Assembly (NCBI GenBank): GCA_034231615.1
Contig: CM067314.1
Coordinates: forward strand, 5,024,501 to 5,088,500
Length of the DNA stretch: 64,000 bases
Reading direction: 5' to 3'
Source: Meghimatium bilineatum
Lineage: Eukaryota > Mollusca > Gastropoda > Stylommatophora > Philomycidae
Shown piece after piece: positions 1-28,200 of the stretch. The translations under genes were made by a program, and so were the position numbers. The stretch's first letter is position 1. Each line of letters opens with the position of its first letter. The notes beneath the pieces are model-generated. The model had not been told where the DNA came from, did not search any database, and saw only the letters and a list, made by a program, of their open reading frames with translations.

Positions 1-430
1 GAAAATATTAACATTTAAACAAATTGCTAACAAGCAAAAAATGATAATTATAAAATGCTACATCTATTATTAATGTGTGACTCTGAAACATGGACAATAA
101 ACAAAGATTTAGGAGACATAATTGATGCCTTTAAAATGTGGATATATAGAATAATATGGAGAACACCATGGAAAGAGAAGAAAACAAACAAAGCAGTTAT
201 AACATTTCTTATGAGGAATGTTTTAAAGAAAAAAGATCAAGCAAATAAAATATTTTGGACACATTAAAAGACATGATGCCTTGTAGAAGGCTTCACTTGT
301 GGGTAAAGTAGAGGAGAGCAAGCATGGGGGAAAGCAGAGATACAAGTCGGAGAGTAACATCGCGAGATGGACATGATACAGTCTAGTAGAGTGCGCCACC
401 ACGACAAAATACACGAGATGATGAAGGTCT
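1..430 (+). mobile_element. LINE fragment, 3' end of reverse-transcriptase ORF
   Basis: An open frame at 55-267 reads CDSETWTINKDLGDIIDAFK, then MWIYRIIWRTPWKEKKTNKA. This is the well-known C-terminal motif of non-LTR retrotransposon ORF2 proteins (yGsETWTl-k, aFe-W-yRriLkIpW-x-x-x-tN). Beyond a stop, similarity to the GK-x-eg-R-GR tail continues weakly to about 430. It is broken and undated, and it lies in the intron upstream of exon 1. Confidence 0.75.
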
Positions 431-440
431 GTTGCAGCTA

Positions 441-1124
441 ACCTTCATTTCGAAGACGGCACTTCATAATGATGAACTGAATTCACTCAAATATCTAATT
501 ATATAAAACTTTTTTATAGACATAAAGAATTAGTTACTGTAGTTATGCAAGTTTTGCTCATCCATATGTGATACGTAAGAAAATGATGAAGATGAAAAAT
601 GTACACGCACAAAAACCACAAACATAAGTGCTTCACCTATTCTTGTATGGTATGTTCATTGCAGTATGTAATAAAATGCTGCTAAATGACTAACTCTATT
701 CTATTTCTATTGCCATTTCATAACCAAACTAACATGTTCATAATATAATCTGAAAACAAACGAAACACGTCGATCTCACTTACATTATCATCTGAGCCTA
801 CTAGTCCAACATATAAATATTCCTCAAAATGTGTTATTTTAAACAATTTTGATTGATTACAGAGATGGCTACACAAGTTCTAAACAAGTATTCTTATGCC
901 ATAATCAAGTAATTTATTGTTAGGTTACTATCTGGTGTACATTGTATATGGAATTTCTCTGTGTAGTAGACATTGTCAAAGTGTTAAAAACTGTCAAATA
1001 GGGGCCTACTGCATGTTTTCCATTAAGGAGTTGAAGTGACGGATTTTGTAGCTGTTTTTATTTACACTTTTATTAGCTTTACTTCTGCAGAAAATACAAT
1101 CTTTTTTAAATATTTGTATTTTAG
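441..1124 (+). other. Intron sequence, nothing recognised
   Basis: AT-rich intron between the LINE tail and exon 1. I read both strands for further polycystin exons (GPS region) and found none. Open frames are short. Confidence 0.5.
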
Positions 1125-1260
1125 CGATTTTCTACAAATTAAACAGAAGGATCCTAGCGAGATAGTTATCATAATCCCAGTATCCGTAATCTGTGTGTGG
1201 TTCATATTCGGAACCTTATTTGTGCTAGCACGAAGACAAGATGCTAAGGAGAAATATCTG
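1125..1260 (+). CDS. Exon 1: TM1 after the GPS region
   Basis: The acceptor is TTTGTATTTTAG at 1124 and the donor GTATGC at 1261. The exon ends in phase 0. It encodes a short extracellular piece (QIKQKDPSE), one hydrophobic helix (IVIIIPVSVICVWFIFGTLF) and the basic cytoplasmic start LARRQDAKEKYL. In polycystin-1 proteins the first helix is followed by a very similar W/L-ARRKD-x-K-D stretch that leads straight into PLAT, and exon 2 continues exactly that way. An alternative acceptor at 1090 in the same frame would add a few residues. The GPS cleavage site expected before this helix is not in the window. Confidence 0.8.
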
Positions 1261-4200
1261 GTATGCTGAATTACATTTTTGTGTGAAATTATTCGATATA
1301 TCTACTTGTTGACCACATCAGACCATCATCTAGTGGCATTCAGTTATTTTGAAGTTCTGAATTTCAGATATCTATACATACCCATCAGTTATAAATTTTG
1401 AATTTCAAATATCTGTACATACCCATCAGTTTCAGTTTACAATTTTAGTTAACTTTACACATCCATCAGATATAATTTAGGAATTTCATTTATCCATACA
1501 TATCCTTCAGTTTTCAATTTAGAATTTCAGTTGTAGGATGTGTGATAAAAATTAGGCATAAATAAATACCAAGTTGTCTTCTCGAAGCGGTGAAACTGTC
1601 CATCTGTATTTGATGTTTGGTTAAAAGAATGCCTACATAGATGTCTACAAATGGTTGCAGTATTGCGTGTGATTGGATATATGTATTGCGTACGATTAGA
1701 TGCATGTATTGTGTGCAATTGGATGCATGTATACAGAAGGATGAAACATGCTTTCCATATACACAAATAGACTCCAATCACACTGCTCTAACCCCTCTGA
1801 GTAGGAGATTTCTTCTCAAAACATTGTATACTACTGAGAGTTGCATTCTAGGAATGGCTGAAAGCTCTGGATTAACATATCTCACCCCAGTCCTACTCAA
1901 ATGCACATAGAAAACAAAAGATTATACTTTGGAATTTCTAAAATAAAAAAAATGAAAATGAAAAATATATAAGTAAATATTGCTAAATAAAATTTGTGAA
2001 TATTGTATGAGAACAACAATTTATAATACAAATTCTCTTTAAAAATTCATTTTCCTCACTGCATACTTTTCTGTTAAGGAATTGCAAGGAGGTTTTTCAT
2101 TGGCTGTGGAAAGAGGCTACTTTTCCATAGCAGATGACACAATGTGTACAGGAAGGATTGCTGTTGTAAACATGAAAGATAAAATCCAACCCCAACAGTG
2201 ATTTGAACCTGAGATCTCATGGTTCTGAGATCCATGTTCTTGTCATTCGGTCATGAGCCTAACATCCAGATGACAATGATGTCTGAAAATTAGTTCTGCT
2301 TGTCATTCTCTGATTGCATGATGTTTATTAGGAAGCTTAATGTTTTTCTAGATCGAAACAGGTTGACAGAAAGCCAATGATGGGACTTAGTAGATGTTGC
2401 CAATACTAAAACACCCAACAACCTGCATGGTGACAAAGTGAAAATATATAAACAGTATTTTTATACCGACTCTGTGTTACCATTGACAAAGATGACCCTT
2501 TACAGAGGTACTAGCGAAAAAGATCATATCGTGTGAAGTGAGATGTTTGAGGAAAGCTATAAATGCTACGAGAAAAGACCAACGGAAAATGAAGTAATCA
2601 GGAAAGAAATAAAGACCATCTCAAGCCAAGACTATATCGAGAGACAGCAAACCAGGTGATTTGACCACCTCATGAGAATAGAATAAGCGCAACCAGCCTT
2701 CGTGCATACAACAGTAGAAGATCAGGCTACAATGCATGAGAAAGACCAAGAATTAGGTGGGAGGAGACAATCAAAGAAAGCTTAAAGAGACATAGGCAGA
2801 CTATGACGAATGCGAACAAAATGGCCAAAGACAGGCAACTCTAACTTTCCTCATGACACTTAACGGCACAAGTGGAAATGCCACAGATAGATAGACAATA
2901 GAATATGTGTCTAAATAATGATTCCTAATTGATATTATTAATGCCTATAATCCTTAAATTTTGCATTTTTCAAACTGGGGAGAGAATCGTTGATTTAATC
3001 ATATAATTACTAATTGATTAGATGCTTGATTTGATCATTTGTTTTGTGAATACAATGAAATTATGAATTTAGTGATTGGGCGACTAGATTCAATTAAATG
3101 AAATATGTGTTATTGTGTTATAAATAATATAATCCATAACCCAGTAGGGTCATAGGGATGTTACATTGAAACATTTAACCCAGCTAGATATACATGTTTC
3201 CCTATCCTCTGTAATCCTTAGGAGCTCAGAAACTTCACACCCTGTCCGTTCCTTGATATTTTCCAACCAATCTTCTAGCCTCCATGTCTTCTTTAACCTT
3301 CAAGTGTACTGTGAAGAACAGCCACTGTTGTCGAAGAATGTCTTAACAGATGACAATACCGCCAGTATTTACATATTTTAACGTCCATTAACAGTGATTC
3401 ATTTTGAGCCGCGATTTCATTAATATTGTATGATTCACTGAATGATATATTTAACAGAGTAATTCAAATTTTGCACAGGATGTTGGTTGTTGTTGCATAA
3501 TCCATGTACTTCATTGGTCCGTTCTCAGTGACTTGAGTACACAAATTTCTTGACGAGATCACATCTATTTGGGGGGATGTGGTTGGTCAAGAACGGAAAA
3601 CCTGTTAACTTGAGTTACAACAGTGGGTGGAGTTATTCACACAATTTATCACTAGAATTATTACTTTATATTTGTTCCCAGACATGTAGTTGTTGAAGGG
3701 AATGATCGAACCACTGCACTGGCGTGCATGGTCAATAGATACATCAGTGGATCAATCTGACATAGTTAATGCGCTAAGGGACCTCATCTGCTACGAAGAT
3801 TTTCATAAGTGCGAATCATGGTCGCTCTCAAGATTACAGGATATGGGTGTAAAGATAGAAACAACAGATAAAGATAAACATAACAGATACAAAAGGAGAC
3901 TGATGAAACAGCATCAAACTAGAACTGTCAGCTTCTACACTCTGATGGATTTATTGAGGAGACTGGGGGATAGGAACATCAACGATTTTGTTCCGTGTAT
4001 GCTGTGATAACCTGCAGTCATAACTCATTCATTCAATTGCTGATTGATTATTTATGTCAACAGATTGAATGATTGCAATATGTGCTAATTATTATGTTAA
4101 CAGATTGAATGATTTCGATATCTGCTCGTGATTATTATGTTAACAGATTGAAGGATTGCAATATCTGCTCATGATTATTATGTTAACAGATTGAATGATT

Positions 4201-7200
4201 GCAATATGTGCAAATTATTATGTTAACAGATTGAATGATTTCGATATCTGCTCATGATTATTATGTTAACAGATTGAATGATTGCAATATGTGCTGATTG
4301 ATTATTATGTTAACAGATTGAATGATTTCGATATCTGCTCGAGATTATTATGTTAACAGATTGAATCATTGCAATATGTGCTCAGAATAGTAATATAATT
4401 ACCAACTATATCCCAGGGAAAGACATTTGCTCTCCAGGGCGTGTATAATCCTTACAAATGTGAACAATACTTGATGTGTTTTGTGACTGGCTTTGGGCGA
4501 GGCTGTGGTACAACTTGTATACCTTACATGACTATCATTGGCACAAACTGTGTTAGTCCCAGATATAAACTGGATACAAGTGAAGTTGTTTTTGTGGTAA
4601 GTCATCATTTTAGAGATAGAAAAATTGTGTAGTTGTTGTCTGCATCGTGTACCAAAATAAATAAACTACTGTTAAAAACAATGTTAACTACTACACACCT
4701 ACTGATTCTATGAGTAGGCATATGCTTTGAGATAATCAGTCGACTATTTGCGCTGTCAGTTGCTTGAGTTAATGACGAGATCTGTGCTGAAGAGTTATCT
4801 TCATTTTTGTACCTGAACACGTGGGTGTCAAGAGAAATGAAAGAACAGAGAAAACGAGATCGATAAGTGAAGAGGAAAGCTCAATCTATAACAGAGAACT
4901 AGAGTGAGAAGTGAAAAATAAAGCTCAATCTGTAACAGAGAATTAAAGCGAGATGAAGAGAAAACTAGATTTATAACAGAAAACTAGATAGATAAGTGAA
5001 AATGAAAGCTTAATCTGTAACAGAGATCTATTGCGAGAAATGAGGAAGAAAGAAGAAATAATGGGGCTAGAAACAACAAAAGGAGCCATGATAGTATCCA
5101 AAAAATGGCCACATTTTCTGAAAAATGTAGAAATGTTTTGCTTTTGTGGATAAAACAGGTAGCGGGTGATATTGTAACTGAGAACTTTATTAGTGAAAAA
5201 ACAAAGGTCTTGTACATCGACTTTGTTAAAGGCACACACGTTCTCACAGGCAAAGATTACAGTAAATCATAAGATAACCATGATTCCGCTAGTGACAGTG
5301 AAGGTCGTCCTACATGATAACATTCGTTCTTCTACACTATATCGTTTCCTTTACATGGGCAATGATTTCTATTTAATTAATTCATTCATTACTTTGTATA
5401 AATTTTAAATAGGCATACAATTATCTATAATATAATAGCCATATTCTGTCAGTCTCTACAAAACGCTCCATGAATAGCGTATTTATGTCATGGAATTCCG
5501 TGTGACATCCAATCAAAACGATTGGTGCCGAGGTGGAATTTTTCCCCGCACGACTCAAAGCAGATGCCATTGTTGTATACAAATGTTATTTTTAATGATG
5601 ATAGTCAATTTGATCAAAGTCACTATAATGAACAAACATCAATGGTTCTCATCAATGAAGATTGCGAACCACCCTTTCACTGTAACATTCACATTTATGC
5701 ATTCATAAAATATTGGTTATGGACTGTATTCAATGAATTGATTCTGCATGGCTTCTAAGTCAATTTGGCACAATATGAGATGGGGTAGCCAACTCTACCA
5801 AATAACTTCCTCAGCTGCCTTTTATGACATGTATGGCAGGTAAACAACGTTGCTATTATTTTATCCACTTCTGGTCCCTGCAATTGGGCTTACTCACAAT
5901 AACTTTATATAATAAAAAGGATCAGAAGGCAGTAGACAGGATTTGAACGAGATTCACCACCGAAGACAGATGTGTCGGGCCATTGGCGCAAATAAAACGG
6001 CAACACAACGCATTTCCATTCTCTGGACTACATTCTGCTAGAAATCTAGTAGGACATGTCCTGCTACAAGAGAATTCAGCAGGAGTTTGAGAATGTATGC
6101 TGAAGAAGAAGAAGAACGAGAACCATTTAGATGGCACATATTCACTATGCAACGTGAGACAAAACATTTTCTGAATTTGACCACACCGCTTCTCAATGTT
6201 GAAAAATCATTTTAGTGTCCACTACTTCTTATGAGGAAATTCTAAGTTAGCCATTTCATGAATAATTCATATTCATTCACCTGTATATAATAGAAGTGGT
6301 GTGTGTTTCTAACCAATATCCACTATTTCTTATCATTACAGAGTGGTTCTGAGGTCTGGATCATGGTTAGTGTTCCTGAAGACCTGGGTAGACCAAGGAG
6401 GATTATAGTTTCTTTAGAAAAGGAATACTCGCGAGTCTCTTCATGGTATGTACTTACACCAACCCTACATGCATTCATGGCATGTACTTACACCATACAT
6501 GCATTCATGGCATGTACTTACACCATACATGCATTCATGGCATGTACTTACACCATACATGCATTCATGGCATGTACTTACACCAACCCTACATGCATTC
6601 ATGGCATGTACTTACACCATACATGCATTCATGGCATGTACTTACACCATACATGCATTCATGGCATGTACTTACACCATACATGCATTCATGGCATGTA
6701 CTTACACCATACATGCATTCATGGCATGTACTTACACCATACATGCATTCATGGCATGTACTTACACCAACCATACATGCATTCATGGCATGTACTTACA
6801 CCAACCATACATGCATTCATGGCATGTACTTACACCAAACATGCATTCATGGCATGTACTTACACCATACATGCATTCATGGCATGTACTTACACCATAC
6901 ATGCATTCATGGCATGTACTTACACCAACCATACATGCATTCATGGCATGTACTTACACCAACCATACATGCATTCATGGCATGTACTTACACCAACCCT
7001 ACATGCATTCATGGCATGTACTTACACCAACCATACATGCATTCATGGCATGTACTTACACCAACCATACATGCATTCATGGCATGTACTTACACTAACC
7101 CTACATACATTCATGGCATGTACTTACACTAACCCTACATACATTCATGGCATGTACTTACACCATACATGCATTCATGGCATGTACTTACACTAACCCT

Positions 7201-10200
7201 ACATGCATTCATGGCATGTACTTACACTAACCCTACATACATTCATGGCATGTACTTACACCATACATGCATTCATGGCATGTACTTACACCATACATGC
7301 ATTCATGGTATGTACTTACACTAACCCTACATGCATTCATGGTATGTACTTACACTAACCCTACATGCATTCATGGCATGTACTTACACTAACCCTACAT
7401 ACATTCATGGCATGTACTTACACCATACATGCATTCATGGCATGTACTTACACTAACCCTACATACATTCATGGCATGTACTTACACCATACATGCATTC
7501 ATGGCATGTACTTACACTAACCCTACATGCATTCATGGCATGTACTTACACTAACCCTACATACATTCATGGCATGTACTTACACCATACATGCATTCAT
7601 GGCATGTACTTACACCATACATGCATTCATGGTATGTACTTACACTAACCCTACATGCATTCATGGTATGTACTTACACTAACCCTACATGCATTCATGG
7701 CATGTACTTACACTAACCCTACATACATTCATGGCATGTACTTACACCATACATGCATTCATGGCATGTACTTACACCATACATGCATTCATGGTATGTA
7801 CTTACACTAACCCTACATGCATTCATGGCATGTACTTACACTAACCCTACATACATTCATGGTATGTACTTACACTAACCCTACATGCATTCATGGCATG
7901 TACTTACACCATACATGCATTCATGGCATGTACTTACACTAACCCTACATACATTCATGGCATGTACTTACACCATACATGCATTCATGGCATGTACTTA
8001 CACCATACATGCAATCATGGCATGTACTTACACCATACATGCATTCATGGCATGTACTTACACTAACCCTACATACATTCATGGCATGTACTTACACCAT
8101 ACATGCATTCATGGCATGTACTTACACTAACCCTACATACATTCATGGCATGTACTTACACCAACCCTAACCCTACATACATTCATGGCATGTACTTACA
8201 CTAACCCTACATGCATTCATGGTATGTACTTACACTAACCCTACATACATTCATGGCATGTACTTACACTAACCCTACATGCATTCATGGCATGTACTTA
8301 CACTAACCCTACATACATTCATGGCATGTACTTACACTAACCCTACATGCATTCATGGCATGTACTTACACTAACCCTACATGCATTCATGGCATGTACT
8401 TACACTAACCCTACATGCATTCATGGCATGTACTTACACTAACCCTACATACATTCATGGTATGTACTTACACTAACCCTACATACATTCATGGCATGTA
8501 CTTACACTAACCCTACATGCATTCATGGCATGTACTTACACTAACCCTACATGCATTCATGGCATGTACTTACACTAACCCTACATGCATTCATGGCATG
8601 TACTTACATTAACCCTAACCCTACATACATTCATGGCATGTACTTACACCAACCCTAACCCTACATACATTCATGGCATGTACTTACACCAACCCTAACC
8701 CTACATACATTCATGGCATGTACTTACACTAACCCTACATACATTCATGGCATGTACTTACACCAACCCTAACCTTACATACATTCATGCATGTACTTAC
8801 ACTAAGCCCAACACTACATACATTCATGGCATGTACTTCCACTAACCCTACATACATTCATGGCATGTACTTCCACCAACCCTAACCCTACATACATTCA
8901 TGGCATGTACTTACCCTAACCCTACATACATTCATGGCATGTACTTACACCAACCCTAACCCTACATACATTCATGGCATGTACTTCCACTAACCCTACA
9001 AACATTCATGGCATGTACTTACACCAACCCTACATACACTCATGGCATGTACTTACACCAACCCTAACCCTACATACATTCATGGCATGTACTTCCACTA
9101 ACCCTACAAACATTCATGGAATGTACTTCCACTAACCCTACATACACTCATGGCATGTACTTACACCAACCCTAACCCTACATACATTCATGGCATGTAC
9201 TTACACCAACCCTAAATCTACATACATTCATGGCATGTACTTACACCAACCCTAACCCTACATACATTCATGGCATGTAATTCCACTAACCCTACATTTA
9301 TTCATGGCATGTACTTACACCAACCCTACATACATTCATGGCATGTACTTACACCAACCCTACATACATTCATGGTATGTACTTACACTAACCCTACATA
9401 CATTCATGGTATGTACTTACACTAACCCTACATACATCCATGGTATGTACTTACACTAACCCTACATACATCCATGTTATGTACTTACACTAACCCTACA
9501 TACATCCTTGGTATGTACATACACTATCCCTAAACTTACAGACATTCATGATATGTACATACATTAAGCATGTCGTAAAAAATGACACATTAGACCTTAA
9601 TGTACCACAAATTGGTGGCTTATCTTATTTAAACTGTAGCCACCAACCCAGCATTTTTTGGCTGTGGTGATTTTCTATGCAATATAAATATGTTCAGTAG
9701 TTTCCATTGCTTTCTGAACGGCCCGGATACACAATTGCCTGTGGCATGTGAACTAAGTACCCAGGCTATCACATACCAAACCGCCACAGAGCTGGACATG
9801 CTCGCTACTTTACTATGTATTCGCTGAAACCCTTTGTTGCCTTTCACTACTTTACTTTTCCATAAAAGTGATCAAATTCAAGTAGGAAGCCAGAGGATAA
9901 ATTAAAAATTCTTTAGTCCAACGGGAATTGAACCAGTCCGTTCAACTGCACCAAATCGCCTAACAACTCTCATACACGGGTTTTTCCGTACTTGACTAAT
10001 CGCATCTCCAAAAGAACATGCGATTTCGTCAAGACATTCAAACTGTGCACTCAAGTCAGTCACTGAGAACGGACCAATCAAGACAAGGACTATTGCAACA
10101 ACAACGAACATTCCGTACAGGTATTGAAGCATCCTCAGTAAGAACAAACATATAACATCCGTATTAGTTCAACAAGGGCCAACAGGTCTTCTTGTAAACA

Positions 10201-13200
10201 TGGATAACATATATAGACAGTACAATTTCTTCAAATAATTGCTTATACAAGTAAATTCAAGTAGGAAGCCAGAGGATAAATTAAAAATTCTTGAAGTCTT
10301 AACTAAAATTGAACCAGTCCGTTCAACGGCACCAAATCGCCTAGCAACTCTCGCACATGGGTTTTTGCCGTACTAATATAAGAATATACGTTCTGAGTGA
10401 CTTGATTGCACAGTTTGAATGTCTTGACAAATGACATCTTTTTTATGGAGATGTGATTAGTCAAGCATGGAAAAACCCGTGTATGAGAGTTGCTAGGCGA
10501 TGTGGTGCCATTGAATGGACTAGTTCAGTTCCCAATAGTCTCAAGAATTCATAAAATTGAGCATAGGTATGTGTAGATGATGTTGTCCTTGGAGTCAGTG
10601 ATGCTCATTGAACTGAGAATAGCGAGTTCAATCTAGAAATCAGAGTAAGGACTAGATTGTTTTTTTTGTGCTGAGGTAGAATAAGAAAGCCCCACTTTGC
10701 ACATCATGGTGACTACTTTGGCAACTGTTTCCATGTTCATTAATATAATCATATCGCAGTCTTTTTATTGCAGGCATTGCTTACTATTGTCAGCAAACAA
10801 ATAATTAATTCATGAACATTTTCATATATGGAATATTTTAAGGGTCAGCAGCAGAAGAAATATTTAAAGGGGTCTCTGGTCATGGAAAGGTTAAGAACCT
10901 CTGAACTAAGGTTTATGGACAGCCAACATATTATAAACCAATTATGAACAAATGGTTACACAAATGGTATAAACATGCTGATACTTGTTTTATGTTTTCT
11001 TCAATAAGGTTTATAAAAGAGTTGTACATCAGACATATCCAGACGGGAGAGCAATGGATTTGTCCTTTTAATAACTGGATTCCGGACACTGATAATTACA
11101 ATTTCTATTTTTGTGTCAACGATGTCCGAAAAAAGAAAGGTAGCTGTATTTTCTTAATTATTTGAATGATATTTGTTTCTGCAAATACGACTAACGACTT
11201 TTGTGCAGAATGTTAACAATATAACGCCTTAATTTAGCTGTGATATCTTCACTTTTCAGTAGCACATCCAATTTCATCATTGCTTCTAGGTCACTGTAAC
11301 CCTATATGGAATGAGGAAGCTAACTATACTCCTAACCCTTTTTAGTTTTCTCTTGTGACATGCATGGAAAGAAAACAACGTTGCTATTCTTTGCTCCTCT
11401 TTCGGACCCACGGCACATAATCGTATTGCAAAGATGATGAAGTTTTTCGTAATCAGGAGACAACGTACATTGGTAGAAGCATTGTGAACAGGTTTCTAAT
11501 ATCTCTGGCATCCCTTCGTTGAGATGGTCTTCATTTCTTTCCTGATGTCTTCATTTCTCCGTATTCACTTCTGGTGACATTTATAGCTTTCCTCAAACAT
11601 CACAGTATCAATGTTTGACATTGGAAAAAGGACTGGTCTAAAAATACTGTTTATCAACAGTCATTTTGTCGCTATGCAGATTGTTGGGTGTTGTGTGTGT
11701 TGTCGACAGGTAAGTTACACTTAACAAATAACATTGGTAATAAAATGAAAAAAGATTGACAATAATGTGCTAGTAACAGTGGTAAATTCAAGAAAGAAGC
11801 CAGAGGATAAATAAAAAATTCTGAAGACTAACGGGAATTGAACCAGTCCGTTCAACAGCACCAAATCACCTGGTAACTCTGATACACAGGTTTTTCCGTA
11901 CTTGAATAACCAAATCTCCCAAAAAAAAGATGCGATTTTGTCAAGACATTCAAACTGTGCACTCACGTCACTGTAAAAGGACCAATCGAGACAAGGACTA
12001 TTACAACAACAACAAACATCCCATACAGGTATTGAAGTATCCTCAATAACACAAACATATAACAACCGTATTTGTTACTGTCTCTATTTTATTTATGTTT
12101 AGAAGAAGACCTATTGACCCTTTTACAATATACCATTGACAATATCTTCCTTATCTCTGCCATGCAGTCTCTTGCACCGTTGATGTTTGCTCCTAAGTAT
12201 TCTAATTTATCCACACATTCTATCTTGGTATTATCTATTCTGATTTTTGGTTGTTGTGTTGTTAAATTTGTTGACAAGATTTTTGTTTTTTACGCATTTA
12301 AATATAAATTGTGTGATTCGTTGTATTTCTTTGTGTTTTTGATTAGTTGTTCCAATCCCTTTATATCATTTGAATGAAGCACAGTGTCCTCTGCGTAGCG
12401 TAGTTCAGGGATTTCAAAACCACTGATGTTTAAAGCATGATAGTCAGTGTTGTGTATGTCTTCTCTCACATTTCTCATTATATTTTCTGCGTAGATATTG
12501 AGTATGGTGAGAGTGTGCATCCCTGTCTTACTCCACTCTGTACCACAAACCACTCTGAGAGATTGCCCTCTAACTTCACTGCAGCCTTTTGTTGGGGGTA
12601 GGGTTTATAAAATGCAAGTTTAGTCCTTCCTCGAAGGGAGACATTGCAGTGTGGCAGTATACTGACATCATTACGTCCTGCCAGGATCGTAGCATGAGCC
12701 TACACCTCAGGGCAAACTAGTTCATCATTCTTCTGTCAGATCTGTTGACAGATCTGCATTGATGGCACACATAGCATTCGCCGTTACTTAGGAGTCTGCC
12801 ACAAAAGATAAATATGCAATGTCCCCATGTCTGTATCTCTCCATCATCCATGGCACCATTCAACAAAAGAAGAAAGATGCAATGTCCCCATGTCTGTATC
12901 TCTCCATCATCCATGGCACCAATCAATAAAAGATGAAAGATGCAATGTCCCCATCTCTGTATCTCTCCATCATCCATGGCACCATTCAACAAAAGATGAA
13001 ATATGCAATGTCCCCATGTCTGTATCTCTCCGTCATACATGGCACCATTCAACAAAAGATGAAAGATGCAATGTCCCCATGTCTGTATCTCTCCATCATA
13101 CATGGCACCATTCAACAAAAGATGAAAGATGCAATGTCCCCATGTCTGTATCTCTCCATCATCCATGACACCATTCAACAAAAGACAAAAATAAGAAATC

Positions 13201-16200
13201 GAGACGTAGTGCCACAGATGATAGATTGGCAGCCTATACTCCCTACTGTTCATAGTCGTCTTCTATGACATGCCTGGAAGGAAGACAGCTGTCCTATTCT
13301 TTTCATCATGAAATAGAATTTATCAGACGCCTGTTACCACACAAGTAAAAATATCAGTGCTACTGAAATCTAGAAAGGATGACAATAATGTACAAACATG
13401 TACACTATTGGTACATCATTCTTTTGGAGAAGGGTACAAAATCACAACGTACACTTCAGAGCCGAAAGTAGCGCAGCAATAACTCGTTAATGACATCAAT
13501 GAAAGCCTTTGAAATAGACCAAGATACATCTGAAGAACTTGCACAAAGTAGATCTACATTATGTTCTACAGTTAAAAAGTGTGCATCATCTTATGAAAAG
13601 TGGAAAATGCTGCACCTCAACAGCGGAGAGTAGCTAGAAAGTCACGGATAGACCAAAAACCGACTACAGTGGTCATTCCATAGCCGAACTGTCTAATGAC
13701 ATTTGCGGCTCGAATAGAACTTATTAGCCATCTACAAACTCCTAGCCATGGACATAGCTCAAACTAAATTTCAAAATTGGATGTAACAAATGGTCATCAT
13801 CACTTGCGATGGACGGACATCAATAACTTGATCAATAGCTTTCCTCCAAAAGGTGTGGTGGAAAGTTCATAATAATGTGTTAATTACTGGTGTGAGAGTG
13901 GAGAAAGGATGATAATGATGTGATAATTAATAACAGCGATACTAAAATGGATAAAGGGGAACAGTAATTTACTAACAGTCGTACCAAAACAGGATGATAT
14001 GGGACTTAGGGGAAGTAATAAAATGTCACCATAGTTCCAGAGCAATGCTTAAAGTGACACCAGCCAAGCGGTTTCTGGTGAACCACTGAGGACAGCTCAA
14101 CACTGTGAGTTCAACCACATTCTACAATGATGTTTCATTACTCACCATCGAACCAGGTTTGCACAGATGGCACCCACTCGCATCATAGCTTGAGTCAACA
14201 TGATTTCCATCTTTGACTACATGCATTCCCTAGGGCAGGGGTTGGGAACCTTTTTGTCTGAGAGAGCCATGGACACCACATATTTGGAAAAGTAATTCTG
14301 TGAGAGCCATACATTATTAAAACTAAAAATTCAAGTAAATATGTGCATTTTGTGTAATTGAAACACTAAAAGTACAATAATTATGTCTCTGAATTCTTTT
14401 TAATATCATTGTTATGCTGTTGCTAATCAGAGTATTTTTTACCATTAATGTGACTTCTGATGCTGAGCTGCAGTAGACTTTAGCTCATTTGTAGAATGAA
14501 ATATTGATATGCAATTAATATGTAGATCAAAAGAGTCTAAAGAAACATTTTTTTTTTAATTGAACATTTGTCTGCGAGCCAGATGCAGCCATCAGTAGAG
14601 CCACATCTGGCTCGTGAGCCATAGGTTCCCGACCCCTGCCCTAGGGTGTAGAAGAGATGCCTTTATGGTGCAATCTGATCGAAGATGAAATACTTGTTGA
14701 CTCAAACTGTGAGGAATGTGGGTGCCATCAAAGCGGACCTGCTTAAAAAAGCATTTGCTACATTACTGTTTTAAAAAAAAATAATAAATACTCATTGTTT
14801 CTATATTATATAACCCGCCTTTAGGAATTATGAACAGTTGTAAGAATTAAATTATAAACATTTGTTGTAAGAATTGAATTATGAACAGTTGTAAGAATTG
14901 AATTATGAACAGTTGTTGTAAGAATTGAATTACGAACAGTTGTTGTAAGAATTGAATTATGAACAGTTGTTGTAAGAATTGAACTATGAACAGTTGTTGT
15001 AAGAATTGAATTATGAACAGTTGTGGTAAGAATTGAATTATGAACAGTTGTTGTAAGAATTGAATTATGAACAGTTGTTGTAAGAATTGAATTATGAACA
15101 GTTATTGTAAGAATTGAATTAAAACAGTTGTTGTAAGAATTGAATTATGAACAGTTGTAAGAATTGAATTATGAACAGTTGTTGTAAGAATTGAATTACG
15201 AACAGTTGTTGTAAGAATTGAATTATGAACAGTTATTGCAAGAATTGAATTATGAACAGTTGTTGTAAGAATTGAATTATGAACAGTTGTTGTAAGAATT
15301 GAACTATGAACAGTTGTTGTAAGAATTGAATTATGAACAGTTGTGGTAAGAATTGAATTATGAACAGTTGTTGTAAGAATTGAATTATGAACAGTTGTAA
15401 GAATTGAATTATGAACAGTTGTTGTAAGAATTGAATTACGAACAGTTGTTGTAAGAATTGAATTATGAACAGTTATTGCAAGAATTGAATTATGAACAGT
15501 TGTTGTAAGAATTGAATTATGAACAGTTATTGCAAGAATTGAATTATGAACAGTTGAGTGTTGTTGCAAGAATTGAACTATGAACAGTTGTTGTAAGAAT
15601 TGAATTATGAACAGTTGTAAGAATTGAATTATGAACAGTTGTTGTAAGAATTGAATTACGAACAGTTGTTGTAAGAATTGAATTATGAACAGTTATTGCA
15701 AAAATTGAATTATGAACAATTGTTGTAAGAATTGAATTATGAACAGTTGTTGTAAGAATTGAATTATGAACAGTTGTTGTAAGAATGGAATTACAAACAG
15801 TTGTTGTAAGAATTGAATTATGAACAGTTGTTGTAAGAATTGAATTACAAACAGTTGTTGTAAGAATTGAATTATGAACAGTTGTTGTAAGAATTGAATT
15901 ACAAACAGTTATTGCAAAAATTGAATTATGAACAATTGTTGCAAGAATTGAATTATGAAGAGTTGAGTGTTGTTGCAAGAATTCAATTATGAACAGTTGT
16001 TGTAAGAATTGAATTATGAACAGTTGAGTGTTGTTGCAAAAATGGAATTATGAACAGTTGAGTGTTGTTGCAAGAATTGAATTATGAACAGTTGTTGTAA
16101 TAATTAAATTATGAACAGTTGTTAGAATTGAATTATGAACAGTTGTTGTAAGAATTGAATTATGAACAGTTGAGTCTTGTTGCAAGAATTGAATTATGAA

Positions 16201-19200
16201 CAGTTGAGTGTTGTTGCAAGAATTGAATTATGAACAGTTGTTGCAAGAATTGAATTATGAATAGTTTTTGCAATAATTGAATTATGAACAGTTGAGTGTT
16301 GTTGCAAGAATTGAATTATGAACAGTTGTAAGAATTGAATTATGAACAGTTGTTGTAAGAATTGAATTATGAACATTTGAGTGTTGCAAGAATTGAATAA
16401 CAAATTATTCAATATTTAAGGCAGTGCTTCGGTTGCCTTTGCTACAGTGCTGGTACGTCTCATAAGAAACCAGCATCCTATCTTTGGTATCAAATATAAT
16501 ATTCCTGGAAGCAGTTTCACAAAGGTAAGTCCTACATGTAAAATAATTCTCTAAAATAATTTTATAGGGTGACTATAAAATGCAATTCAGTCTGCTCATG
16601 TGACACTGGTTCATTTCATATCTTAAGCGAACACATTAAATACACATGATTACATAATAATATACATCCCTAAAAAAAATATTTGATTTTGATAAAAGTC
16701 ATCTAAATGTTCATATTCTCTTGTCACTATGAAATGTACAAAAAGAGCCCATCATCTTGTGAAAAGAGGAGAAATGCTGCAGCCCAATAGCGTAGAGTAG
16801 CTAGAAAGTCACGGATAGTCCAAAATCCGCCTACAGTCGTCATTCCATATCCGAACTGGCCAAGAACATTTACAGCTCGAATAGGGCTGATTAGCCATCT
16901 ACGAACTATTACACATGGTCATAATTCTAACTGGATTTTCAAAAGTGGATGTAAAACTGGTCATCATCACTTGTGATGGACGAATACACACACATCAAAT
17001 GTACATAGGCATATTACAGATCCAAATATTAACACAACAAAAACACACACATTGCTAGATTATAACATTCTTCGAGCAACATAAATAAAATGTAGTACAG
17101 ATAATTAGATCCTTATTATAAATTTGAAATATAAATGACATACACTGACACACAGTAGCTTCAGATAAAATATAAGTATTAAATTTTATGAGTCAGAGAC
17201 AGTGTTACCACTGATATTTTATAAATAACCCCAGATAAACCTGTACAAAAACTTAGACAACTGCAAACTATAAAATATAATTTATATAAAGCCATGAACC
17301 TAGCAGGCATACCTTTACAAAAAAAGATAATGTGCCCATTTTTGTGCGCAATTCCATAATTTCCATGAGCCTTTCACTGCCCTTTTTAAAAATAAAAAGT
17401 CAGAGAGAATGATTTGCCGAGTTTTTGACTTAATTCGTAGGATTTCCTAAAAAGAACAACCCAGATTTACTAAATTTGCCAAAATACACCAGCTGAATTT
17501 TTATTAGAAATATTTCTATGTGTGGCCATTATGAATATCAGGTACCACATACACATTTTTGAAATACGGTCATACTTGCTACTATTTTAGAAACACTTGG
17601 GATTGTTAAACAATACAAGAAAACACATAGCCTTTTTTCTGTCTAGCTCACATATCTTAAGTTTGTTTTGCTAACACATAACCTGATGTCTGTCTTGCTA
17701 ACATATCAGCTTACATCCAGTTTTTTTCGGACATGTCACTATTTATTTTGTTTTGCTAACATATCACTATATATTTTATCTTGCTAACATATCACTATTT
17801 GTTTTATTTTACTAACATATCACTATTTCTTTTGTCTTGCTAACAAAGCACCTTTTGTTTAATTTTACTAACATATCACTACCGGGTATTTTTTTTCTCT
17901 TGCTAACTTATCACCTTCTGTTTTGTCTTGCTAACTTATCACCTTCTGTTTTGTCTTGCTAACTTATCACCTTCTGTTTTGTCTTGCTAACTTATCACCT
18001 TCTGTTTTGTCTTGCTAACTTATCACCTTCTGTTTTGTCTTGCTAACTTATCACCTTCTGTTTTGTCTGTGTTGTCTTGCTAACATATCTGCTGTTTATA
18101 TGGTGTACAACATATGATTATTTTCTGTTATATTTATCCAGGCACAACATGTTGTATTGTGTATGTGTGGTTTTCTTATCCTGATGTGGTACTGTTTACA
18201 TGCTCAAGATCTACCTACCCTGAAGCTCCCTGATGATTACCAGAGTACAGAGAAGTTCTCAATCAACATTGAGATGTATATTCGATCTGCATATTCTGCG
18301 TTAATAACTGTGTTACCTTTCTATTTTTTGGGAGTACTGCTCGAGTCGTGAGTTGCTATTATTTGTGTACGCCAACATACGTAATGTATATTTGTTCTGC
18401 GTTTGTACATGTAATACTCTTCCACTTTTTGTTAACTTGTTCCAGACCTACTTACATGTGTAGATATATAAAAGCTGTGAATGTTTTTATCTGTATGCAT
18501 ATGTGGAGAGTGAAAAAAAACGTTTGTTTATCTATGAATTTTTTTTTAAAGGATTACACCCAAATGGTGGAAATCATGATTCAGGATTGACCGTTTCACA
18601 TGAGATAAGAGTAGAGATTCATCAATCAAACATTGTACTTTGTTATTTTATGATAGGCTCCTAGAGGTGGGAAATGCTAGATGTGCCATCACTGAGGATG
18701 AGTCATCACATCTGACAGAAGAATGATGAGATAAGATAGCTGGCCCAGATGTATATTCTGCACTGCTAATACCATGTGAAAATGCTGGAAAACTGTCACA
18801 GTAGAGTGCTTCTCTTCATGGACTAAATAAGCATGCATAAAACACCCTGGTAAAACTATGAGTTTCAGACAGCAAAGTTTATGCGAGTCCAGGTTTTGTC
18901 TCGACTGTTCAGCTGAGGAGGATGCGAGTCCAGGTTTTGTCTCGACCATTGAACTGAGGAGGATGCGAGTCCTGGTTTTGTCTCGACTGTTGAACTGAGG
19001 AGGATGCAAGTCCAGGTTTTGTATCGACTGTTGAGTTGAGGAGGATGCGAGTCCAGGTTTTGTCTCGACTGTTGAACTGAGGAGGTTGCGAGTCCAGGTT
19101 TTGTCTCAACTGTTGAACTGAGGAGGATGCAAGTCCAGGTTTTGTCTCAACTGTTGAACTGAGGAGGATGCGAGTCCAGGTTTTGTCTCAACTGTTGGAC

Positions 19201-22200
19201 TGAGGAGGTTGCGAGTCCAGGTTTTGTCTCGACTGCTAAGCTGAGGAGGATCTGTGCTTTTTTTCAGTAAGAGCATGGGCTGTCAAGAACTAGTTGCTCA
19301 TGGCTGAAGGGATTCTTCATCAATCTCTTTCATCTTTTCTTTTGTCCACACTAAACAAATGTGCACTTTGCAATGTTTTCAAATGACAAACTTTCTTTAT
19401 ATGAATTTCTTTGTGTAAGTCTGAATTGATTAATCTCTCTTGTCATGATACTCGAAGTACCTTGCTATGATGGTAATGAGGAAGTAATAAATTTAGCTGT
19501 GAGTGGGTATATGCATATGGACAGGTCAAATACCTTCTGACTAAACCACATGTCCTCCCTATGTGAGTAACCGAATTGGCGCCTGAGCTCATATAGGATT
19601 CTTTATCTGAAAGGTATAGTTGTGTTAAGGGGGGGGGGGGGGTTAATGTATGTATCAAGTCCCACAGATCATCCTGAATCGAAAGTTATAACATTTAATT
19701 TCAAATGTTGATATTTTATTTCTGCTGCTGATGCCATTGCCCGTTTAGGACAAAATATTTGTTGACAATGAAGATAATTAACTGATTGATAGTATCAATT
19801 ATGTTTTTATATTTTCTCTTAGTCAATTAGTTAATTTTGTTTTTTTAATGACACATAGAGTAGTAATTTCTGTCCAGCTTGAGCACATCGTTGCTGTAAT
19901 TATTAGGTCTTACTTATATCTAATATTCAGCTTTCTCTGTTTATTGTTTTACATAAAGTTTCTTGGAGTTAACCTACATTTCTTTTACCCTGTGCCTTTC
20001 ACAAGATAGTGTGTTCAGAAAGTCTGTTTTCATTCATTCTAAGTACATGGCCAATGTAATCCATTTGATGATGCGCAATTACATATAAAGCAATTTTGTT
20101 TCTGAAATAAAGGATGAAATAAAGGTTATTCATTAAGCCACCAATCAACCATCTATAGTAGAAGAATATGTACACAACCTACTCCAGCTTGAACTGAATA
20201 CGGAAATAAAAATATATCTTGCCATGCATGTTGTATATAATGTGTTTTTTTGTTTGTTTTACAAGCACATTATTGATTTCTCATATGGTTTTTTTTTGGT
20301 TTTACAAGCACAATATTGATTTCTCATATGGGTTTTTTTGGTTTACAAGCACATTATTGATTTCTTGTATGGTTTTTATTTGGTTTTAAAAGCACATTAT
20401 TGATTTCTTGTAAGGTTTTTATTTGGTTTTAAAAGCACATTATTGATTTCTTGTAAGGTTTTTATTTGGTTTACAAGCACATTATTGATTTCTTGTATGG
20501 TTTTTATTTGGTTTTAAAAGCACATTATAGATTTCTCGTATGGATTTTATTTGTTTGTTTTACAAGCACATTATTAATTTTTCATGTGGGTTTTTTGTTT
20601 TACAAGCACATTATTGATTTCTCATGTGGGTTTTTCCTACGATTATATTGTTTAATATTGAGCTACATTACATAAAAATATAACATTTCTCCTTACATTT
20701 CTTACCAGGATCACGGAATGTCATATTACTTATTGTCAGACATATTTATTTACCAAGATCACTTAATGTCATAAGATATTTTATTGTCAGCCATGTTTAT
20801 TTACCAGGATCATTCAATGACATGAGAAATTTCATTGTCAGCCATGTTTATTTACAAGTATCACTAAATGTCAGGAGATCACTTATTGTCTGCAAAGTTT
20901 ATTGTATGTTTGTTACATACATGTGTTTCCAGTAGTGATCTACGGCTGTGAAACATGGACATTAAATAAAACTACAGCCAAGATTAGAGCTTTCGAAATT
21001 AAGCACTATAGAGGAAACCTTAGTGCACCAAGATGTGGTAAGAAAAATCAACGTTCCAGAAGGCTGACTTTTAAAAACCATATTACGCAGAAAGTTAAAT
21101 TTTTTCGACCATGGGAAGAGACACGATGACATGTAAAGAGTGTTTTTGGAGGGGGGGGGGGGGCGATAGAAGGCACTATTGCCAGAGGCAGATCAAGACA
21201 TCGTTGGACAAGATATATTCAGGAATGCATGCATATGTCGCTAGATGAAGCGGGACAATTTGCCAGAGACAGATCAAGACATCGTTGCACAAGATATATT
21301 CAGGAATGCATGCATATGTCGCTAGATGAAGCGGGACAATTTGCCAGAGACAGATCAAGACATCATTGGACCAGATATATTCAGGAATGCATGCATATGT
21401 CGCTAGATGAAGTGGGACAACTTGCCAGAGACAGATCAAGACATCATTGGACAAGATATATTCAGGAATGCATGCATATGTCGCTAGATGAAGTGGGACA
21501 ATTTGCCAGAGACAGATCAAGACATCATTGGACCAGATATATTCAGGAATGCATGCATATGTCGCTAGATGAAGTGGGACAACTTGCCAGAGACAGATCA
21601 AGACATCATTGGACAAGATATATTCAGGAATGCATGCATATGTCGCTAGATGAAGTGGGACAATTTGCCAGAGACAGATCAAAACATCGTGGGACAAGAT
21701 ATATTCATGAATGCATGCATGTCGCTAGATGAAGTGGGACAACTTGCCAGAGACAGATCAAGACAACGTTGGACAAGATATATTCAGGAATGCATGCATA
21801 TGTCGCTAGATGAAGTGGGACAACTTGCCAGAGACAGATCAAGACATCGTTGGACAAGATATATTCAGGAATGCATGCATATGTCGCTAGATGAAGCGGG
21901 ACAACTTGCCAGAGACAGATGAGATTTCAGAACAAATGGACATAAATATTTCATAAGAAAGACTATGTTTTGGAAAGAATATGTCATATGACACACAATG
22001 TCTGTTTACCAGGATCACTGAATGTCATGATATACACTTGTTGTCTGACATGTTTATTTACCAGGATCGCTGAATGTTATGAAATACACTTGTTGTCTGA
22101 CATGTTTTTTTGCCAGGATCACTGAATGGCATGTGATCACTTGTATTCAGACATGTTTATTTACCAGGATCACTGAATGTCATGTGATCACTTGTTGTCT

Positions 22201-25200
22201 GACATATTTATTTACCAGGATCACTGAATGTCATGTGATCACTTGTTGTCTGACATGTGTATTTACCATGATCACTGAATGTCATGTGATCGCTTGTTGT
22301 CTGACATGTGTATTTACCAGGATCACTGAATGTCATGATATACACTTGTTGTCTGACATGTTTATTTACCAGGATCACTGAATGTCATGTGATCACTTGT
22401 TGTCTGACATGTTTATTTACCAGGATCACTGAATGTCATGTGATCACTTGTTGTCAGATATGTTTATTTACCAGGATCACTGAATGTCATGAGATACACT
22501 TGTTGTCAGACATGTTTATTTACCAGGATCACTGAATGTCATGTGATCACTTGTTGTCAGATATGTTTATTTACCAGGATCACTGAATGTCATGAGATAC
22601 ACTTGTTGTCTGACATGTTTATTTATCAGGATTACTGAATGTCATATTTATCAGGATTACTTGTTGTCTGACATGTTTATTTACAAGGATCATTGAATGT
22701 CATGAGATAATTTATTATGAAACATGCTTTTTTATTGACAGGTCTAGACAAATTGATACTCGCGACATTGAATGGCGGCAACTACTTAAACATCCTAATG
22801 ACAGAGTTATAGATAAGAAAGTTCAAGATTATATAAAAAATGTAATTCCTATTGAACACAGTAATCTACCTATAGTTTCTGAAACTACTTCTGTTAAAAG
22901 TGTAGAATTAATAAGTGAAGTACATATGCCCAATATCTCGAATGAAGGTGAAAACAATAAAGAGCAAAATATCAAGAATAAAAACATGAGTAAGAGTGAA
23001 ATTGTAGCACCGAAAGGTAATCAGATAGAGTATAACACAATCCAGTTGAAACAGTCACCAAACGTTTCACAAGCTCCATCATTGATGATAATAGAAAAGG
23101 AAGACAATAAAAGTACAGTACATAAAATGTCTTCCTGGTGAGTAGACGTTTATTAATATTGCACTTTAAAAATGATTTGTGAGCGGGGTGAGTGTTGATC
23201 AATGCATAAACTATAGTTACTCTGCTCACGTTAAGAATGAAGAGGGTTAAAACACACTCCTACATTTTACTCCGCGACAACAGGTGATTTTTAAACAGCT
23301 GACGACATGTAAAAACAATATTATTTAAAAACAATATTTAAACAACATTTTAAATAAACAGTTAAAAGACGAAATTTAAAAACAATACTCCTGGGCACTT
23401 AACAATCGATTAATGCATTCTGCATCCAACAACCAATCAGAAAACTGACCTACTTCATTCTTAGAGTGAACATAGTTTAGCAGCATATTTATGTTGGTTT
23501 GTTTGGTTGATCTTATGGTCAATACATGAACTATATATTCTTCTTCTTCTGTGTTCGCTTTCTTACAACCACAACGAATATCGTATGATTTCCGCCGGGG
23601 TGCGTGACATATATTGTACTGCAAATTCCACAATAATTCTGTGTTACTTGCACCTCTGTTGCCCCACTTTGTAGTCTGCATGTCCAAGGCCCAGCACATC
23701 CGTTTTTGCCATTCCTTTATTTCGGGTAGTAGGCTTCCCTAGCTCGTGACAGCCTGCCTATCTGTCGATGGGCACTTGGGTGTTTAGTGACTCTTCACTG
23801 AGAGGATTGTCATTCATATTTATCTTGCATGAGGTGTTCTGCCGTCTGTGAACTTGCCTTGTGTAATTAGACGTTCTGTGCCTGTGCCCATCGATTACTG
23901 AACCTTTTCTCTTCTGCGAGCCTGGTTCCGGGTGAGGAAGAACTTGACAGAAGAGGTGAACCCTGGCTCATTCATCTTCTTAGCCAAGGTGTCGTTCACC
24001 GACACTGTGAACCCCTCGCCCAAGTTTGAGGCTCACACCAACTGTTTGGAAGCAAGGAGTTCTTGAACAGAGCGACCTTGTCTCATTTGTGCCTGAGCCC
24101 ATCCGGACTGAACCCTTTCTCTCCGGAGTGTGTTTCCGGTATAGGAAACTCACCAGTAGAGTTGGGCGAGGGTAGCCTTTATTGTCCCATTTGTGCCTGA
24201 GCCCATCGGAGTACAGAACTATTTCTCTCTGCGAGCATGTTTCCGGTATAGGAAAGCTTTACATTAGAGTTGTACCCGGTCTTCTTTCTTTGCCGAACAC
24301 CCACGATTGGGTGTGAGTCTCTGCCCATGTGGAACTCGTGTAACTAGAAGCTTGTCTTGAGCTAACAGAGCTTGTAGTTCCGATTTCCTTGGAACCAGTT
24401 TTCACTTTTTATTTGCAGTTTGTGCTGCCCTCTGGCACTGTGCTGCCATTTCATTGTACTCAGTATGTAGTCTTTTTGTCTCTCGCTAAGCATCTGCCTT
24501 TTCGCACCTTTGTATTGGCCGCCCTTCCAATGCTCTGACTGGACTTATTTGCGTCACTGTGTGTCAACAGTGTCACTGCATGTGTTGGTGCTGATGGTGT
24601 CGGAGATATTGTCTGTCTCTTATGCAGTAAAATCTCTTTCCATCTGCTACCTCCACATTCCCGGACACGATCCCCAAATAATTTGGCCAGAATTAGCACG
24701 AGCCGCTGTGTTTCTATTACCAGGGTGCACCACGAGGAGGTATATTTGGGATCTTAGTTATCTGCTAACCCTGGGTCTGCCGAGAGCAGTGTGTTCCCTT
24801 TGCACCCCACATGAACTACAGCAGCATAGTTATGTTGGTTTGTTTGGTTGATCTTGTGATCAATACATGAACTATATCAGAATAGTTATGTTGGTTTGTA
24901 TGGTTGATCTTGTGATCAATACATGAACTATATTAGCATAGTTATGTTGGTTTGTATGGTTGATCTTGTGATCAATACATGAACTATATCAGCATAGTTA
25001 TGTTGGTTTGTATTGTTGATCTTGTGATCAATACATGAACTATATCAGCATAGTTATGTTGGTTTGTATGGTTGATCTTGTGATCAATACATGAACTATA
25101 TTAGCATAGTTATGTTGGTTTGTATGGTTGATCTTGTGATCAATACATGAACTATATCAGCATAGTTATGTTGGTTTGTATGGTTGATCTTGTGATCAAT

Positions 25201-28200
25201 ACATGAACTATATCAGAATAGTTATGTTGGTTTGTATGGTTGATCTTGTGATCAATACATGAACTATATCAGAATAGTTATGTTGGTTTGTATGGTTGAT
25301 CTTGTGATCAATACATGAACTATATCAGCATAGTTATGTTGGTTTGTTTGATTGATCTTGTGATCAATACATGAACTATATCAGCATAGTTATGTTGGTT
25401 TGTATAGTTGATCTTGTGATCAATACATGAACTATATCAGCATAGTTATGTTGGTTTGTTTGATTGATCTTGTGATCAATACATGAACTATATCAGCATA
25501 GTTATGTTGGTTTGTTTGGTTGATCTTGTGATCAATACATGAACTATATCAGCATAGTTATGTTGGTTTGTTTGATTGATCTTGTGATCAATACATGAAC
25601 TATATCAGCATAGTTATGTTGGTTTGTATGGTTGATCTTGTGATCAATACATGAACTATAGCAGCATAGTTATGTTGGTTTGTATGGTTGATCTTGTGAT
25701 CAATACATGAACTATATCAGCATAGTTATGTTGGTTTGTTTGATTGATCTTGTGATCAATACATGAACTATATCAGAATAGTTATGTTGGTTTGTATGGT
25801 TGATCTTGTGATCAATACATGAACTATATCAGCATAGTTATGTTGGTTTGTATGGTTGATCTTGTGATCAATACATGAACTATATCAGAATAGTTATGTT
25901 GGTTTGTATGGTTGATCTTGTGATCAATACATGAACTATATCAGCATAGTTATGTTGGTTTGTTTGATTGATCTTGTGATCAATACATGAACTATATCAG
26001 CATAGTTATGTTGGTTTGTATAGTTGATCTTGTGATCAATACATGAACTATATCAGCATAGTTATGTTGGTTTGTTTGATTGATCTTGTGATCAATACAT
26101 GAACTATATCAGCATAGTTATGTTGGTTTGTATGGTTGATCTTGTGATCAATACATGAACTATAGCAGCATAGTTATGTTGGTTTGTATGGTTGATCTTG
26201 TGATCAATACATGAACTATATCAGCATAGTTATGTTGGTTTGTATGGTTGATCTTGTGATCAATACATGAACTATATCAGCATAGTTATGTTGGTTTGTT
26301 TGATTGATCTTGTGATCAATACATGAACTATATCAGCATAGTTATGTTGGTTTGTATGGTTGATCTTGTGATCAATACATGAACTATAGCAGCATAGTTA
26401 TGTTGGTTTGTATGGTTGATCTTGTGATCAATACATGAACTATAGCAGCATAGTTATGTTGGTTTGTTTGGTTGATCTTGTGATCAATACATGAACTATA
26501 TCAGCATAGTTATGTTGGTTTGTTTGATTGATCTTGTGATCAATACATGAACTATATCAGCATAGTTATGTTGGTTTGTATGGTTGATCTTGTGATCAAT
26601 ACATGAACTATATCAGAATAGTTATGTTGGTTTGTATGGTTGATCTTGTGATCAATACATGAACTATATCAGCATAGTTATGTTGGTTTGTATGGTTGAT
26701 CTTGTGATCAATACATGAACTATATCAGAATAGTTATGTTGGTTTGTATGGTTGATCTTGTGATCAATACATGAACTATATCAGAATAGTTATGTTAGTT
26801 TGTTTGATTGATCTTGTGATCAATACATGAACTATATCAGCATAGTTATGTTGGTTTGTATGGTTGATCTTGTGATCAATACATGAACTATATCAGAATA
26901 GTTATGTTGGTTTGTATGGTTGATCTTGTGATCAATACATGAACTATATCAGAATAGTTATGTTGGTTTGTATGGTTGATCTTGTGATCAATACATGAAC
27001 TATATCAGAATAGTTATGTTGGTTTGTATGGTTGATCTTGTGATCAATACATGAACTATATCAGAATAGTTATGTTAGTTTGTTTGATTGATCTTGTGAT
27101 CAATACATGAACTATATCAGCATAGTTATGTTGGTTTGTATGGTTGATCTTGTGATCAATACATGAACTATATCAGCATAGTTATGTTGGTTTGTATGGT
27201 TGATCTTGTGATCAATACATGAACTATATCAGAATAGTTATGTTGGTTTGTATGGTTGATCTTGTGATCAATACATGAACTATATCAGAATAGTTATGTT
27301 GGTTTGTATGGTTGATCTTGTGATCAATACATGAACTATATCAGAATAGTTATGTTGGTTTGTATGGTTGATCTTGTGATCAATACATGAACTATATCAG
27401 CATAGTTATGTTGGTTTGTATGGTTGATCTTGTGATCAATACATGAACTATATCAGAATAGTTATGTTGGTTTGTATGGTTGATCTTGTGATCAATACAT
27501 GAACTATATCAGAATAGTTATGTTAGTTTGTTTGATTGATCTTGTGATCAATACATGAACTATATCAGCATAGTTATGTTGGTTTGTATGGTTGATCTTG
27601 TGATCAATACATGAACTATATCAGAATAGTTATGTTGGTTTGTATGGTTGATCTTGTGATCAATACATGAACTATATCAGAATAGTTATGTTGGTTTGTA
27701 TGGTTGATCTTGTGATCAATACATGAACTATATCAGAATAGTTATGTTGGTTTGTATGGTTGATCTTGTGATCAATACATGAACTATATCAGCATAGTTA
27801 TGTTGGTTTGTATGGTTGATCTTGTGATCAATACATGAACTATATCAGAATAGTTATGTTGGTTTGTATGGTTGATCTTGTGATCAATACATGAACTATA
27901 TCAGCATAGTTATGTTGGTTTGTATGGTTGATCTTGTGATCAATACATGAACTATATCAGAATAGTTATTTTGGTTTGTATGGTTGATCTTGTGATCAAT
28001 ACATGAACTATATCAGCATAGTTATGTTGGTTTGTTTGATTGATCTTGTGATCAATACATGAACTATAGCAGCATAGTTATGTTGGTTTGTTTGATTGAT
28101 CTTGTGATCAATACATGAACTATATCAGCATAGTTATGTTGGTTTGTTTGATTGATCTTGTGATCAATACATGAACTATATCAGCATAGTTATGTTGGTT

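Follow-up and report, generated by a model that had tools for sequence, protein, structure and literature searches.

The window analysed here is a 64,000-nucleotide stretch of the genome of the gastropod Meghimatium bilineatum (assembly GCA_034231615.1, contig CM067314.1, positions 5,024,501 to 5,088,500 of the forward strand). It contains part of what its sequence suggests is probably a polycystin-1-like gene. The border between predicted exon 3 and intron 3 of this gene lies inside a minisatellite. The array runs on the + strand from 6440 to 9574 and has 93 units, mainly of 30, 34 or 40 bp; the exon-proximal two thirds are homogeneous and the distal third is varied. The first repeat unit (6440-6473, + strand) has 6 bases in the exon and 28 in the intron; the intronic part starts with the splice donor, whose GT is at 6446-6447. 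We argue that this is a junction-anchored, probably neutral intronic minisatellite whose real donor has been kept by selection, and we consider this reading likely.

Exons 1 to 4 were modelled on the + strand. They were chosen by eye from translations and joined at frame-keeping splice sites. Exon 1 (1148-1260) has an uncertain 5' end, an open frame with a hydrophobic, transmembrane-like stretch, and the donor CTG/GTATGC at 1261 (a slash marks the splice junction here and below). It can be joined in phase to exon 2 through three possible acceptors. Exon 2 (4417-4596) would encode the first part of a PLAT-like domain, as judged from open joins and alignments of the joined peptide; its acceptor at 4417 was picked from candidates at 4417, 4423 and 4438, and its donor is GTG/GTAAGT at 4597. 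The second part of the domain falls in exon 3 (6342-6445), which terminates in TCT TCA TG/ and whose acceptor at 6342 was picked from several open ones. Exon 4 (11009-11138) would hold the end of the domain (FIKELYIRHIQTGEQW...). Its acceptor is ATAAG/GTTTAT and its 3' end is uncertain. Intron 3 in this model extends from 6446 to 11008, and the array occupies about 69% of its 4563 bp.

For the join between exons 3 and 4, all AGs in about 10900-11080 were considered as acceptors. Three joins are open, and only the one at 11009 restores a Trp codon (TGG). The restored Trp, with TG/G split across the 6446/11009 join, aligns with a Trp of polycystin-1 in a search of solved structures. The peptide of exons 1 to 4 has polycystin-1 as its best solved relative (E 0.0001, query residues 25-168), and the alignment begins within exon 1. 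Several points weigh against this identification. The same joined peptide matches Pfam PLAT at E 0.00038 with 21.6 bits, below the curated cut-off of 23. Exons 3 and 4 alone have no Pfam PLAT match, and against the PDB they find no polycystin, the best match being an amylase at E 0.99. Joins other than that of exon 3 to exon 4 each left several open choices, and the choice among them was made by eye and guided by the expected fit to PLAT. Exon 2 alone matches 0 Pfam families. The claim of a PLAT exon ending at this donor, made in a first-pass annotation of the DNA, therefore has modest support: the Trp restored at 11009 and the polycystin-1 match favour it, but the PLAT score is below threshold. 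The position of the 6446 donor fits the predicted gene model well.

The array itself is clear. Tandem Repeats Finder (TRF) calls one array at 6440-9532 with a period of 34, 91.8 copies and 89% matches. Anchor-based cutting of 6440-9574 gives 54 units of 34 bp, 26 of 30, 12 of 40 and 1 of 39, which fall into 27 distinct sequences. A search of both strands of the window for the 14-mer TTCATGGTATGTAC, allowing at most 2 mismatches, gave 92 matches against 1.2 expected in shuffles, and all 92 sit inside the intron 3 array on the + strand. The border sequence at 6440-6451 is TTCATG/GTATGT, and the end of exon 3 and the donor bases run through ACTTACACC. It had been claimed earlier that the first unit is the gene's own donor, followed by about 90 copies, and this stands. 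The array was also said to start on the exon border. The donor does lie in the first unit, but the start is 6 bp inside the exon. The match between unit and exon is limited to the six exonic bases TTCATG, for which the chance at a fixed place is about 0.00035; exon positions 6342-6439 compare with the unit no better than shuffles do (208/300 at least as good). At the other end, 13/300 shuffles were at least as good as the flank 9575-9700, and decayed array bases may run a little past 9574 into it. The unit as an exact pattern has 0 matches in viral contigs and 0 in bacterial or archaeal contigs. The array is poor in AG (3 against 103 expected). Selection was considered as a cause of this and rejected, since an AG-free unit explains it. 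Many 40-bp variants of the unit (8142-9266, mainly in the distal third) contain CCCTAACCCTA, almost two repeats of the telomere motif of animals.

The units differ at the position of the donor. Of the 93 units, 77 have GC, and one of these, at about 8783, has lost a G. GT is present in 13, namely the border unit and 12 decoys, and the remaining 3 have other bases. This agrees with the earlier count of about a dozen GTATGT copies in which most others have GC. The 12 decoy donors (GGTATGT, 7308-9516, + strand) have their GT at 7308, 7342, 7632, 7666, 7794, 7862, 8222, 8460, 9375, 9409, 9443 and 9511. The full donor 9-mer ATG/GTATGT, identical to the border, is present in 11 of them. A CACT tail is also found on 11/12 decoys; units 1 to 20, counting the border unit, have CACC. 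The border unit is the sole unit that has GT and CACC together. The decoys are not independent, because an exact head-to-tail copy of 10 units (324 bp; 7110-7757, + strand) lies inside the array and carries two decoys per copy. The identity between 7110-7433 and 7434-7757 extends 2 bp upstream and 20 bp downstream, for 346 bp in total. An exact 346-bp duplication in one haplotype suggests recent change. GT is found at both array edges, at the distal one in four of the final six units, and GC prevails between them. Since GT is present at the border and in these last units, it is likely the ancestral state of the unit.

There is a clear polarity along the array. When the array is cut into thirds of 31 units, from exon-proximal to distal, the thirds have 2, 1 and 13 singleton unit types, and 8, 7 and 20 distinct types. 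Without the two end units the singletons number 12/30 in the distal third and 2/61 elsewhere (Fisher p 1.6e-5, which is only a guide because tandem units are related). Turnover has been recent towards the exon, and the distal part is in decay. Since the singleton variants are mostly in the distal third, turnover reaches the border. The units at 6564 and 6974 have the sequence of the border unit in all but the GT/GC base, and the body of the border unit matches nearby units rather than distal ones. On our reading, homogenisation extends as far as the border, where the donor alone is kept constant.

We argue the simplest route to this structure would begin in the gene. A short segment spanning the border of exon 3 and intron 3 (6 exonic and about 28 intronic bases) would have been tandemly duplicated, after which the array would have expanded by unequal exchange or slippage until it took up some two thirds of the intron. 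Turnover would extend as far as the exon, where selection on the protein and on splicing holds the border at ATG/GTATGT. A GC-bearing lineage would have overrun most of the array, including the whole exon-proximal part, through ordinary homogenisation. We infer the order of these events and the direction of growth. The TG/G at the border is part of a Trp codon that polycystin-1 has as well, so gene to array is the simplest direction. Seeding from the donor, as had been proposed, is thus moderately supported by the six matching exonic bases and by a TG/G that is set by a protein codon. Besides the PLAT match below the cut-off and the exon joins fitted to it by eye, three observations count against this reading. 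The border unit keeps no ancestral seed, since its body is that of nearby units. An array edge lies within 6 bp of one of the seven modelled junctions in 0.079 of 5000 random placements. The GC state is not confined to one haplotype, since the CACT tail occurs on 4/26 of the exon-proximal GC units.

One can imagine a scenario where the array was born within the intron with no link to the donor. It would then have advanced to the left and overwritten the end of the exon, a change to TTCATG that the protein could bear. Such encroachment, or conversion, would give a border unit whose body equals nearby units and not distal ones, and this is what is seen. Arrays also expand freely in the window, where 30 tandem arrays (merged by hand from 79 TRF rows) cover 29,837/64,000 bases (46.6%) and 22/30 are at least 150 bp. 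However, this scenario requires that a good donor arose by chance in register with a Trp codon whose TG/G is set by the protein. It is also disfavoured by the functional GT in 4/6 of the last units. We consider an origin within the intron possible but unlikely. A different scenario makes the exon border a selective ratchet, where a constant "mother" unit at the exon, the one copy under selection, is copied into the intron without limit, so that the array goes on growing and decoys are repeatedly produced and purged. We regard this as doubtful, and more so than an origin within the intron.

The loss of GT near the exon had been put down to selection or chance. Selection against decoys could have stripped GT from the exon-proximal copies. 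This would be an addition to the junction-anchored origin rather than a replacement for it. There are 26 consecutive GC units between the border and the first GT decoy, and the four with CACT share the tail of most decoys. The runs of GC units along the array are 26, 8, 3, 1, 10, 6, 17 and 6, though, and the chance that the longest of eight runs is the first is about 1/8. The other 22/26 units carry CACC while 11/12 decoys are on CACT, so a single GT-to-GC change with exchange between units can explain the block. Chance is the better reading and selection is unsupported; we think it very unlikely that purging of decoys shaped this part of the array.

The copies have also to be considered as splice sites. 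The first-pass annotation described the decoys as perfect. The border and all 12 decoys have the same predicted U1 pairing, -6.7 kcal/mol, and the single GC copy tested has -2.6 kcal/mol. In this sense the decoys are equal to the donor, but two GT sites of intron 3 outside the array pair better (10567 at -8.6 and 10121 at -7.2) and the nearest GT decoy is 862 bp beyond the donor at 6446. The first GT decoy, at 7308, does lie past the in-frame stop (7194-7196), as had been noted. Splicing most likely still uses 6446. This donor is favoured by its distance of 104 nt from its acceptor; use of the nearest equal decoy would give a 966-nt exon that includes a stop. Exon definition would favour a donor so placed over distant decoys.

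One can also imagine that the decoys are used, and that the array is a regulated multi-donor element with alternative 5' splice sites. The donor 9-mer shared by 11/12 decoys and the equal U1 pairing of all 12 would allow this, and the GC copies at 6788, 6980 and 7082, which are ahead of the stop, would keep the frame. However, extension to the nearest GT decoy takes the exon past the stop to at least 966 nt, the GC copy tested pairs weakly, and similar arrays in lancelets are reported, in the parts of the sources considered, not to disturb splicing (PMC3087553, PMC3902484). We find regulated use of the decoys hardly credible. Least probable of all is a coincidence in which an ordinary minisatellite touches the exon without sharing its origin. 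Arrays are abundant in the window, and 7.9% of the random trials bring an edge to within 6 bp of a modelled junction, but six exonic bases and the donor match the unit (TTCATG alone about 0.00035) and the 34-base border unit differs by one base from those at 6564 and 6974.

Other arrays lie close to the modelled junctions. The window has a GC content of 36.2%. An array with a 41-bp unit (1359-1532) begins 98 bp past the exon 1 donor. Another with a unit of about 43 bp (4038-4384) has acceptor-like copies (TTATTATGTTAACAG/ATTGAATG) and ends 32 bp upstream of the modelled exon 2 acceptor; in the flank between them no degenerate copy is detectable against shuffles. Degenerate copies of the neighbouring arrays were sought at the exon 1 donor and the exon 2 acceptor, and 99 and 141 of 300 shuffles, respectively, were at least as good. 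Of the seven modelled junctions, four have an array edge no more than 99 bp away, the same array serving for two of these, and 2.0% of 5000 random placements give at least three such junctions. Farther away is an 11.8-kb array of about 238 copies of a 50-bp unit (36989-48759). A 3.4-kb array at 24809-28216 has 60.9 copies of a 56-bp unit; at 97% match it is more uniform than the array in intron 3 (89%). An array with an 81-bp unit (21179-21920) lies downstream of a peptide within 20821-21920. This peptide seems to resemble the end of the reverse transcriptase of a long interspersed nuclear element (LINE), and the likeness suggests that the array grew from a retroelement end.

No further polycystin exons were found with Pfam in three-frame translations of the + strand (stops read as X) at 1-6452, 9560-14802, 16380-20242, 28200-36992 and 50560-60002, the only segments covered. 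A regular-expression search for polycystin motifs gave two matches in six frames, neither convincing. A transmembrane-looking open reading frame (ORF) at 33470-33817 was tried as a further piece of the gene and dropped, with no match better than E 0.55. Pfam returned a single family, GIY-YIG, for ten ORFs. The ORF concerned (29747-30127) is just below the Pfam cut-off (E 0.0002, 22.1 bits against 22.6) and is perhaps the remnant of a Penelope-like retroelement.

Minisatellites that hold splice sites are not new. By its title, Turri et al. 1995 reportedly describes a human minisatellite in an interferon-induced transcript, said to be of the 6-16 type, that gives multiple splice donors. The units hold a splice donor there as here, but several donors are used in the human case, again by the title, whereas most copies here are without GT.

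The closest likeness is to the "mirages" of lancelets, as the passages considered describe them. In Adh3 and the globins BflGb6 and BflGb9, minisatellites span exon-intron junctions and repeat the splice sites, and both the Adh3 data and reverse transcription PCR of the globins suggest that regular splicing is undisturbed (PMC3087553). Such minisatellites were proposed there as a route to new introns (PMC3087553). The lancelet PGBD5 has similar repeats whose first copy abuts the 5' splice site of a predicted gene model (PMC3902484). The intron 3 array is like the mirages in that a tandem repeat spans the exon-intron boundary, its first 6 bp belonging to the modelled exon 3 and the donor being part of it; in that copies bear splice signals, GGTATGT being present in 12/92 further units; and in the concerted evolution of the inner units. 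The Adh3 units, at 10-72 bp, include the sizes found here. The array is unlike the mirages in having 93 units over 3.1 kb against 2-7 copies in PGBD5 and the globins, the globin units being of 150-160 bp, and in having GC instead of GT in most copies. In BflGb6 the boundary units escape homogenisation, whereas here only the distal units do and the exon-side unit does not. In human segmental duplications, variable tandem repeats with units of 30 bp on average occur in some cases at exon-intron boundaries and were linked to novel introns (PMC2812944). Those repeats average 4 copies and altered exon or intron content in the parts of that paper considered, unlike the present array, which leaves the exon model unchanged and implies no new intron (PMC2812944). 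It must be noted that a paper on gastropod hemocyanin introns mentions no minisatellite in the passages considered.

The junction-spanning minisatellite is thus a kind already known, and what is unusual here is the size of the array and the takeover of GT by GC. Intron 3 adds a large example to this kind. If the exon border were a ratchet after all, intron length and decoy load would be set by the tolerance of splicing. If splicing at this intron is accurate, the array would be a natural test of how the spliceosome chooses among 13 donors of equal predicted U1 pairing and 77 near-identical GC copies.
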